DNA of 64,000 nucleotides, taken from positions 648,761 through 712,760 of the forward strand of contig NZ_AQXZ01000019.1 of NCBI RefSeq assembly GCF_000380645.1, given 5' to 3'. A model generated the notes under the pieces. That model made no database searches, was not told the origin of the DNA, and saw only the letters and a list, made by a program, of their open reading frames with translations. Position numbers and translations under genes: made by a program. Positions 15,255-18,202 of the stretch are shown here, in pieces; position 1 is the stretch's first letter, and each line of letters opens with the position of its first letter. Source of the stretch: Smaragdicoccus niigatensis DSM 44881 = NBRC 103563 (GTDB lineage Bacteria > Actinomycetota > Actinomycetes > Mycobacteriales > Mycobacteriaceae).

Positions 15255-15509
15255 ATGGACTGGCGTCACAAAGCAATCTGTCGCGACGAAGACCCGGAGC
15301 TGTTCTTTCCTGTGGGCACCTCGGGTCCGGCGATCGCGCAGATCGCCGAGGCGAAGCTGGTATGCAACCGCTGCCCTGTGACCGCTGAGTGCCTCTCCTG
15401 GGCCCTCAAGTCGGGTCAGGACGCAGGCGTGTGGGGCGGCATGAGCGAGGACGAGCGTCGCGCTCTCAAGCGTCGCACCTCCCGCACCCGGGCACGCAGC
15501 ACCGTCTAA
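15255..15509 (+). CDS. whiB1: Iron-sulfur transcription factor WhiB1
   Basis: An 84-residue Wbl protein that binds a [4Fe-4S] cluster through Cys9, Cys37, Cys40 and Cys46; in mycobacteria the cluster reacts with nitric oxide and WhiB1 contacts the primary sigma factor. The turn GVWGG lies at 58-62 and a basic DNA-binding tail (RRALKRRTSRTRARS) ends the protein. ATG 15255 has TAAGGAG upstream. The promoter carries two CRP-like dyads and a strong terminator follows, so it is a single-gene transcript. WhiB1 is essential in M. tuberculosis. Size and cysteine spacing are exactly those of the family. Confidence 0.97.
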   Translation: MDWRHKAICRDEDPELFFPVGTSGPAIAQIAEAKLVCNRCPVTAECLSWALKSGQDAGVWGGMSEDERRALKRRTSRTRARSTV

Positions 15510-15522
15510 CTGACGATCGAGT

Positions 15523-15553
15523 AGAACCCGGCACGAATTTCGTGCCGGGTTCT
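15523..15553 (+). terminator. whiB1 terminator hairpin
   Basis: A perfect 14-bp stem: AGAACCCGGCACGA (15523-15536) pairs with 15540-15553 across a 3-base loop, starting 14 bases after the whiB1 stop. The right arm is followed by a T-containing run (tcgttgtc) rather than a pure T tract. Confidence 0.85.
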
Positions 15554-15589
15554 TCGTTGTCATAACTATCTGCGCCGAGTCCTCGCCTC

Positions 15590-15649
15590 AGCTTCATGGC
15601 CTGCCGTCCACAGCACCTGATCAGGCGCTCTCAACGGCACGTCATGCAC
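15590..15649. repeat. Left copy of a 60-bp direct repeat with palindromic core
   Basis: Matches 16638-16697 at 53 of 60 positions in the same orientation. Inside it, 15602-15639 is a decayed version of the 38-nt palindrome seen in the right copy (outer arms TGCCGT and ACGGCA, centre CCTGATCAGG). It lies after the whiB1 terminator and before the AbiEi-like gene. Confidence 0.85.
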
Positions 15650-15701
15650 TCGTGGGATCCGGACCTTGGTCCCGTCGCGCTCACACCCGCAGGATCATCG
15701 C

Positions 15702-16634
15702 GTGGAACCGATCTTTCGCGCCCGAGCGCTCCGCGACGGAATCTCCGACGAACGGCTACAAGCCGCCACCGCACGAAACGAGCTGATCCGTATTCGGAGC
15801 GGCGTCTACGTCCCGGCATCTGACTTCCGGGCAATGCACCTTGAGGACAGACATCGGACAGTCGTCATTGGTGGCGTTCCGCGGCTCCATGAGGATTCCG
15901 TTCTCAGTCATATCTCGGCCGCGGTACTTCACGGACTTCCGCTGTGGCGGACCGACGTCAGCCGCGTGCATGTCACCAGGCTCGGAGCAACGACCCGCAC
16001 GACTAAGCGCACCCGGTTCTCCGGCGCCCCGCTCACCCTCGACGAAGTCACGTGGATCGACGGCTATCGCGTCACCTCACTCGATCGCACGGTTCTGGAC
16101 ATCGCCCGGTCGCTTCCCTTCGAGCAGGCGGTCGTGGTTGGCGATGCCGGAATCCACAAGGGTGCCCAGGTGAAAGCGGTTCCGGACGTGCGCAGCGAAC
16201 AGGCACGACGGATTCTGGCGTTCCTCGATGGTCGAGCGGAGAGCCCGGGCGAATCGCGCAGCCGGGTCCTGATGGACCGGCTCCGCATCGCCAAGCCCCA
16301 ATCGCAGATCACCATTCTCGACATGGCCGGCCGGTTCATCGCTCGAGTCGACTTCTGCTGGCCTGAGTTCGGGCTGGTCGGCGAGTTCGACGGGTTGCTC
16401 AAGTACAAGGCCGTGCATGGCGAGGATTCGTCGGCCGTAGTCGCCGACGAGAAGCGCCGCGAGGACCGCCTGCGCGCGGCGGTGGCACGTCGTGCGCTGG
16501 GTGTGGGACGACCTCGACCAACCGACACAGATGCTGGCGGACCTACGAAGCCACCTGCGCGAGCGGGTCGCTGCGCCGTCACCGTGGCAGGTCTAGGAAT
16601 TCATGGGTTGCGGGATCGAGCATCGACTACCTAG
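15702..16634 (+). pseudogene. AbiEi-type antitoxin/nuclease-like gene, frameshifted near its 3' end
   Basis: The N-terminal part resembles the winged-helix AbiEi-like domain common in actinobacteria (ALRDGISDERLQAATARNELIRIRSGVYVP), followed by a C-terminal region like DUF559-type nuclease folds (FGLVGEFDGLLKYKA, then EKRREDRLRA). At about 16479-16483 the frame breaks: bases from 16483 read WHVVRWVWDDLDQPTQML in another frame and end at TAG 16594-16596, exactly as intact relatives do. Restoring two bases would give a 298-residue protein. As it stands, frame 0 runs to 16634 with an unrelated tail. GTG 15702 has AGGA nine bases upstream; TTG 15666 is the alternative. The gene interrupts the whiB1-pdtaS order and is bracketed by 60-bp repeats. 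Confidence 0.7.
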
Positions 16635-16637
16635 CCC

Positions 16638-16697
16638 AGCTGCATGGCCTGCCGTTGACAGCACCTGATCAGGCGCTGTCAACGGCAAGCCACGCAC
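16638..16697. repeat. Right copy of the 60-bp direct repeat with near-perfect palindrome
   Basis: Contains 16650-16687, a 38-nt palindrome with 18 of 19 base pairs matched (arms TGCCGTTGACAGC and GCTGTCAACGGCA around CCTGATCAGG). It lies between the 3' ends of the AbiEi-like gene and pdtaS, so it could also end transcription from both sides, although no T tract follows. Confidence 0.88.
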
Positions 16698-16708: not shown

Positions 16709-18202
16709 CTACCGCCCCGAGCGTCGGCCCAACGGCACCCGCACGACGGCATCGGTTCCACCGTCTTCGGCGGGGTGCAGGCCGATCGAACCGCCGAGTT
16801 CGGCGGTCACCAGCGTGCGAACGATTTGAAGTCCCAGGCGGTCCGAGCGCTCGAGACTGAATCCCACCGGCAAGCCACGCCCGTCATCGTGCACCACCAC
16901 GTCGAGCCAGCGCGCCGAACGTTCGGCCCGCATCGTCACGGTGCCGGTCACACCGGGTTCGAAGGCGTGCTCGATCGCGTTCTGCACGAGTTCGGTCAGG
17001 ACCATGACCAGCGGAGTCGCGCGCTCGGCACTGAACACTCCAAGACTGCCGAGGCGACGGATCTTGACCGGGGTACTGACGGTCGCGACGTCGGACATCA
17101 TCGGGACGAGTCGATCGACGACCTCGTCGAGGTTGACGTCTTCGTCCACGGACATCGACAAGACGTCGTGCACCGCGGCGATCGACTGAACGCGTGCGAC
17201 GGACTCGGCGAGTGCCACGCGCGCTTCCTCGTTCTCAGTTCGCCGGGCCTGCAGCCGAAGCAAGGCCGCCACCGTCTGGAGATTGTTCTTCACGCGGTGG
17301 TGGATCTCGCGGATCGTCGCGTCCTTCGACAACAGCGCGCGGTCACGTCGCTTGACCTCGGTGACGTCACGGACGAGTACGGCGGCACCGGCCGGTTGCT
17401 CGGCGAGCCGAAGAACGAGCGTTCGCAGCAGGACCGTCGCACCGTGGGCGTCCACCTCCATCCGGCGTCCCGTGCGGCCCGCGAGGGCAGCACGAATGTC
17501 GTTGGCGACTTCCTGGGCGTCGAAGGGGTCGGTCACCAGGGCACGGGTCAGCGCGGCGAGATCCTGACCGGTGAGATCGCTCGTGAATCCCATGCGGTGA
17601 TAAGCAGACTGAGCGTTCGGGCTCGCGTAACTGACGAGTCCATCGTCGTCGAGACGGATGAAACCGTCGCCCGGACGGGGGCTGGAGTGCGTGGCGGCGC
17701 GGTCTTCCGGCGTCGGAAACGTGCCCTCGCCGATCATCTGGCACAGGTCGTCAGCGCACCGCAGATAGGCAGACTCGAGCGGGCTGTTCATGCGGCCGCG
17801 CACGATCGCCGAGTCGCGACTGATCACGGCGATGACGTCACCGTCGCATCGGACCGGGATCGCAATGCAGGTCGTGCAGTCTTCGCATCGCTTGCACTCG
17901 GCGCCGAGATACTCGACTTCGTGACTCACCAATGCGCGAATGACGTGTGGATGCTCGCTCGAGTGCGCGATCGAACCGACCGCGTCTTCCGGGATCACGG
18001 TCGGTGCGGTGGTGGGCCGGCATTGTGCGACACATACGACGTCACTACCGGACGTGACTGGACCGACGCCGACCCACAGGAGCAAATCGGCGAACGCCAG
18101 ATCAGCGAGGAGTTGCCAGTCGCCGACGACGCGTTGCAGGTGGTCAACGGCCTTACCTGGTAGGTCAGTGTGTTCGGCGAGGAGCTCACTCAGTGTCGCC
18201 AT
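16709..18202 (-). CDS. pdtaS: Sensor histidine kinase PdtaS
   Basis: A cytosolic 497-residue kinase of the HisKA_2 type that phosphorylates the ANTAR-type RNA-binding regulator PdtaR. N-terminal GAF domain (about 1-150), PAS-like domain (about 175-285), phospho-acceptor region IREIHHRVKNNLQT with His301/His302, and an ATPase domain with N box ELVQNAIEHAF and G box DDGRGLP. The GAF region has Cys57 and Cys61 plus a cluster Cys103-Cys106-Cys109-Cys112 and Cys119, probably metal- or NO-reactive; the M. tuberculosis protein is reported to sense copper and nitric oxide. ATG 18202 has GAGGGAG upstream. Position matches Rv3220c. The partner PdtaR gene is not in the window. Confidence 0.95.
   Translation of the reverse strand: MATLSELLAEHTDLPGKAVDHLQRVVGDWQLLADLAFADLLLWVGVGPVTSGSDVVCVAQCRPTTAPTVIPEDAVGSIAHSSEHPHVIRALVSHEVEYLGAECKRCEDCTTCIAIPVRCDGDVIAVISRDSAIVRGRMNSPLESAYLRCADDLCQMIGEGTFPTPEDRAATHSSPRPGDGFIRLDDDGLVSYASPNAQSAYHRMGFTSDLTGQDLAALTRALVTDPFDAQEVANDIRAALAGRTGRRMEVDAHGATVLLRTLVLRLAEQPAGAAVLVRDVTEVKRRDRALLSKDATIREIHHRVKNNLQTVAALLRLQARRTENEEARVALAESVARVQSIAAVHDVLSMSVDEDVNLDEVVDRLVPMMSDVATVSTPVKIRRLGSLGVFSAERATPLVMVLTELVQNAIEHAFEPGVTGTVTMRAERSARWLDVVVHDDGRGLPVGFSLERSDRLGLQIVRTLVTAELGGSIGLHPAEDGGTDAVVRVPLGRRSGR

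Follow-up and report, generated by a model that had tools for sequence, protein, structure and literature searches.

Between whiB1 and pdtaS, the window (the whole stretch of 64,000 nucleotides of Smaragdicoccus niigatensis DNA analysed here) carries a single gene bracketed by two palindrome-bearing repeats, and this unit is probably an inactivated copy of a two-part system resembling a REPtron (RAYT/REP), with an unrelated predicted nuclease coupled to its own cognate palindrome. The first-pass annotation had described a palindrome-bracketed cassette at this place. It is not a single case: most related loci show the same arrangement, each with palindromes specific to its gene, and dispersed solo copies are the main form in which the palindrome occurs.

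The unit between whiB1 and pdtaS

The two repeats (Table 1) are 61 nt long each, share 89% identity and run in the same direction, as direct repeats, which agrees with the earlier description of two 60-bp repeats (53/60 identical) flanking an AbiEi-like gene; the 38-nt right palindrome and its decayed left counterpart were confirmed as well. When the left repeat was searched against its own genome, its own position scored E 2e-52 and the right repeat E 2e-15, and more copies turned up elsewhere, so the pair is not a chance resemblance. The distance from the pdtaS stop to the right repeat is 12 bp. Besides the AbiEi-like gene, no further gene is found between whiB1 and pdtaS, and no AbiEii toxin gene is present at this locus. 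A second repeat block at 47-48 kb was rejected, being the same palindromes read on the reverse strand.

Table 1. Features of the whiB1–pdtaS interval, in positions of the window
Feature	Position	Strand	Basis or remark
whiB1, conserved neighbour	15255..15509	+	ORF list; sister-species copy 96% identical
Terminator-like hairpin of whiB1, GAACCCGGCACGAATTTCGTGCCGGGTTC, outside the repeat-gene unit	15526..15554	+	Sister has hairpin at the same place
Left (upstream) repeat	15589..15649	+	Covariance-model match, 72.8 bits; holds decayed palindrome
Left palindrome, decayed	15602-15639		15/19 pairs
AbiEi-wHTH / DUF559-like nuclease pseudogene	15702..16596	+	GTG 15702 to ~16482, then +1 frame
Right (downstream) repeat	16637..16697	+	Core CCTGATCAGG; repeat comparison and covariance model
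Right palindrome, TGCCGTTGACAGCACCTGATCAGGCGCTGTCAACGGCA	16650-16687		18/19 pairs
pdtaS-type sensor kinase gene, conserved neighbour	16709..18202	-	ORF list; sister comparison

In the data set the genus consists of two genomes, this one (G000) and that of a sister species (G001). At the corresponding place in the sister (L025), whiB1 is followed by the terminator hairpin and then by pdtaS; neither the AbiEi-like gene nor either repeat is found in this interval, and the empty site holds no palindrome. A joint gain or loss of the gene with both palindromes, as one unit, is possible, whiB1–pdtaS being an example. This upholds the earlier idea that gene and repeats are present or absent together; the refuting case named there, a gene-less relative that still carries both repeats, is not what the sister shows, as it has both neighbours and no part of the unit.

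For the gene itself, the listed ORF (15666-16634) was rejected as a frame-shift artefact, the homologous frame starting at GTG 15702. The frame is broken near 16482, in the nuclease half, and the original stop (TAG, 16594-16596) lies in the +1 frame; since the +1 frame beyond 16482 still codes for the homologous C-terminus, the inactivation looks recent, or like a sequencing error. An intact paralogue (L030, contig C17) is 62% identical to the window gene, with the match split at residue 259/260, and is itself bracketed by two palindrome copies of a distinguishable subtype of the window palindrome family.

The first half of the window gene is AbiEi-like (PADLOC AbiEi, E 1e-13). Its clade is a diverged branch for which Pfam gives no significant DUF559 match, and it is joined to the DUF559 set (A4, 36 relatives) by profile comparison (E 6.6e-14); in the alignment with relatives the clade keeps the acidic residues (E, D, E-x-D), and H241 is not kept. 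The fold prediction covers a relative of the window protein from outside this diverged clade. AlphaFold2 on the 36-sequence alignment of relatives gives a two-part protein (pLDDT 91), in which the N-half (model of the Prescottella protein L113) matches AbiEi 6y8q (Foldseek E 4e-8) and also Rv2827c 1zel, and the C-half matches the catalytic domain of the homing endonuclease I-Bth0305I (3r3p, TM 0.83 of target) and, weakly, Vsr (1cw0). E196, D223, E234, D236, H241 and D250 are invariant in the 36 relatives, and the predicted fold of their C-half together with these residues appears compatible with an EDxHD nuclease. Among the 36 members Pfam found AbiEi, DUF559, MTES_1575 and Vsr (DUF559 and MTES_1575 in 36/36), and no Transposase_17/Y1 (PF01797). 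The earlier label of a defence-type gene was dropped because the window locus has no toxin partner; it also sits poorly with the Vsr/EDxHD fold of the relatives' C-half and with the broken state of the window gene. Phage records contained no copy of the gene, and of the plasmids 1/72,556 had it at full length, in line with the housekeeping-like behaviour of tnpAREP (PMC8266576).

Gene-specific palindromes at related loci

At six of the seven AbiEi/DUF559-like genes of this genome, the upstream and downstream segments match each other with a sequence specific to each gene (matched scores 18-44, mismatched maximum 15); no matching pair is found at L037 of this genome or at L036 of the sister. 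The wider survey comprised 80 loci from named genomes, in Mycobacteriales and Pseudonocardiales, picked by protein only (N-terminal AbiEi winged helix and C-terminal DUF559 domain of the Vsr/EDxHD nuclease fold). At 50/80 loci the upstream-downstream similarity in direct orientation exceeded that of 99% of mismatched pairs (null 1%), and 61/80 were matched in either orientation when the null was limited to dissimilar proteins, 31 of them direct, 13 inverted and 17 undecided. Palindromes on both sides (score cut-off 12 or more) occur at 23/80 loci and at 1/158 neighbouring genes on the same contigs (P 2e-11). These flanking palindromes are long, with arms of median 22, and among the 63 strong ones the terminal tag GTAG is present in 1 and CGTC in 7.

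Of 30 Mycobacterium loci that formed a second set, all six closest homologues have the pair, as do 1/24 of the others, which are 69-75% identical. The association of gene and palindrome is common but patchy, because just one of these 24 more distant homologues has the pair. Several of the homologues at 69-75% identity (L220-L243) have internal stops, and most are without a flanking pair, which points to decay or to the repeat partner having been lost.

The palindromes keep a regular position relative to the gene, with the upstream centre at a median of -68 from the start (IQR -74 to -64) and the downstream centre at +17 from the stop (9 to 24). The main rival explanation starts from the upstream copy, which occupies roughly -95 to -45 relative to the start, near a promoter: the palindromes would be operators through which the AbiEi winged helix represses its own gene, and the scattered copies a regulon or leftovers, without any protein-driven movement. 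There is a precedent in S. agalactiae, whose AbiEi binds inverted repeats in the promoter of its own gene and acts there as a repressor (PMC3985639). However, the upstream copy is matched in regularity by the downstream one just past the stop codon, and the conserved nuclease half would be needless for an operator. We regard this explanation as rather unlikely.

The palindromes also change together with the gene. Among the 93 locus pairs that share both neighbours and are taken as orthologous, similarity between upstream and downstream segments within a genome exceeded that across species in 10/10 non-overlapping pairs (P 0.001), a result of window comparison, the identities of best-matching segments being biased by segment choice. 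Palindromes resemble each other in 62% of locus pairs at protein identity of 80% or more, in 18% at 70-80% and in 2% at 60-70%, and in no pair below 60%. Such co-change of site and protein would also fit a drifting binding specificity on the operator explanation. In the orthologous genes L034 and L038 (one in each species, with the same neighbours), the ends of the palindromes are similar and the interiors differ, and within each species the two sides are alike.

Dispersed copies and their distribution

The genome-wide search that had been suggested for the repeat was carried out with a covariance model built from eight copies, and it locates 22 distinct sites here (44 matches on both strands), mostly solo, and five weaker sites in the sister. 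The palindrome TGCCGN6GCRCCTGATCAGGYGCN6CGGCA, with at most 2 mismatches, has 13 matches per strand in this genome and occurs in 0/400 other genomes of the family. When the sites were compared with the orthologous stretches of the sister, three were occupied in both species and at least four solo sites (L086, L076, L080 and L083) were plainly empty there; one further site carries another palindrome, and the remainder are too diverged to call. As the palindrome family is otherwise absent, gain of these sites seems more likely than loss. That at least four sites have been gained or lost between the two species also speaks against the operator explanation. At the empty sites no clear target duplication was seen, the sister's flanks being too diverged to fix the junctions. 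At one occupied pair (L081 and the sister's L089, C58:31490) the arms are kept in part, with the core CCTGATCAGG in L081 and ACCGAATTGGGT in L089, the sister's copy being nearly perfect. At the place of another solo copy (L077) the sister (L179) has a different palindrome, GATCGTGGACGGAACGCTTCGCC..., perhaps of its own family or a terminator.

Similar dispersal is found in other genera. In 15 named genomes, a search with the palindromes from 17 loci gave many extra copies, each genome holding chiefly its own family; with both strands counted, there are 69 and 60 matches in the two Lolliginicoccus and 60 in one Mycolicibacterium, with no match in the sister and two marginal ones in this genome. 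In the case of Mycobacterium, one palindrome is present in 6/249 species, in 5, 26, 32, 46, 51 and 52 copies, and the reversed-palindrome control gave zero. The protein occurs at 88-100% identity, as one gene each, in exactly the same six species, the next best being 75%. This co-occurrence (6/6 vs 0/243) has P 3e-12 uncorrected for kinship, a value that overstates independence because the six species may be one clade.

Where solo copies sit was followed in one Mycolicibacterium genome (G426), of which 91% is coding according to a simple gene caller. Here 19/22 copies are intergenic and lie mainly at 3' ends; as a rule they take up the space that separates two convergent genes, and each of the two stop codons is then often some 22-33 nt away from the palindrome centre. 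This location, away from promoters, is another point against operators, and it is what would be expected if the palindromes were bidirectional terminators or insulators that are copied around, with the gene being incidental. In the close pair G653 and G636 all five compared solo sites are shared with nearly unchanged arms, without insertion polymorphism among the five, and the arms look more conserved than the adjacent sequence; the shared sites with such arms are compatible with selection acting on the copies as well as with copying that still goes on. The earlier caution that the palindrome may be an ordinary terminator holds for the position of the solo copies at gene ends, but a T-tract follows the strong gene-flanking palindromes in just 1/63 cases. 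In addition, only one of the 158 neighbour genes has palindromes on both sides, and terminators leave both the gene-specific pairing and the co-occurrence in the six Mycobacterium species unexplained. We consider this account improbable. In one orthologous solo palindrome (L248 vs L256) the loop reads GGTCAG in one species and CTGACC, its reverse complement, in the other, which looks like an inversion in place.

Three solo copies of this genome (L007, L008 and L009) reach about 220 nt and are 87-91% identical, and their extra left flank is partly common to the right repeat of the window. They resemble mobilised units and, together with the block presence or absence at whiB1–pdtaS, they would suit a composite or MITE-like element whose repeats are its ends and which is moved in trans by an unrelated transposase. 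Against this, the repeats are mostly direct, they differ from gene to gene and would need a separate transposase for each, the gene often keeps its position between species (the 93 locus pairs above), and clear target duplications were not seen; such an origin is very unlikely.

A possible mechanism and the comparison with known systems

Gene-specific pairing and co-change strongly imply that each protein, probably acting as a dimer, recognises the palindrome belonging to its gene. The nuclease half would then nick or cut DNA at the palindrome, and repair would copy the palindrome to new intergenic sites; in this way the nuclease would spread the palindrome. The same repair would keep the two gene-flanking copies alike, while the gene itself would move rarely and be mostly inherited in place. 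These steps are shared by a second, more tentative reading, to which we give a less than even chance, namely a selfish homing-like class of bacterial repeat systems unrelated to RAYTs, in which a wHTH-EDxHD nuclease cuts its own palindrome, repair multiplies it, and the two change quickly together. On this reading a solo palindrome that is cut and repaired from the gene locus would receive the gene between two whole palindromes, which is exactly the layout seen.

RAYT/REP systems combine a gene and its flanking palindrome pair with dispersed intergenic copies and gene-specific pairing; their flanking palindromes change at fixed loci, and as a rule the gene is present in a single copy and is seldom carried by plasmids (PMC2817692, PMC8266576). 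The present system is like a REPtron in its flanking pair, dispersed copies, gene-specific pairing and co-change, in the gene being mostly single and seldom plasmid-borne, and in that the palindrome tracks the gene. It differs in the protein (AbiEi-wHTH and Vsr/EDxHD fold instead of HUH/Y1), in the near absence of the GTAG tag, in the length of the palindromes, and in the flanks, which are more often direct, whereas a REPtron has two REPs inverted to each other. Because HUH domain and GTAG tag were both looked for without being found as in RAYTs, the system is not filed as one.

With the AbiE type IV toxin–antitoxin system it shares the N-terminal winged helix and the AbiEi fold, and AbiEi too binds inverted repeats upstream; unlike AbiE, the window locus is without an adjacent AbiEii toxin, and the system has an extra C-terminal nuclease domain and downstream and dispersed palindromes. 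The relatives' predicted C-terminal fold matches I-Bth0305I and, weakly, Vsr, and their invariant E, D, H and D positions are compatible with EDxHD; I-Bth0305I dimerises on a target of near 60 bp (PMC3943268). Unlike a homing endonuclease gene, however, the gene lies outside any intron or intein, is flanked by two whole palindromes instead of interrupting a single site, leaves many intact candidate sites in the genome, and faces an empty site in the sister that holds no palindrome. As in MITEs and insertion sequences, there is short repeated intergenic DNA with block presence or absence, but the unit has no transposase and is generally without inverted terminal repeats, and a target duplication was not clearly seen. 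Untagged REP-like palindromes are dispersed in M. tuberculosis and D. radiodurans, with no associated protein named (PMC3733652); the dispersal without a conserved tag is alike, and here a cognate gene is proposed. In open full text no description or name was found for the pairing of an AbiEi/DUF559 gene with a palindrome or REP, which accords with the earlier statement that no named element has this form.

The question raised in PMC3733652, whether untagged palindromes are tied to particular binding proteins, becomes testable. If the interpretation is true, the large 'AbiEi antitoxin / DUF559' family of mycobacteria, rhodococci and relatives would gain a testable role, the likely binding site of each gene could be read from its own flanks, and two unrelated nucleases would have reached the same gene-plus-palindrome design.
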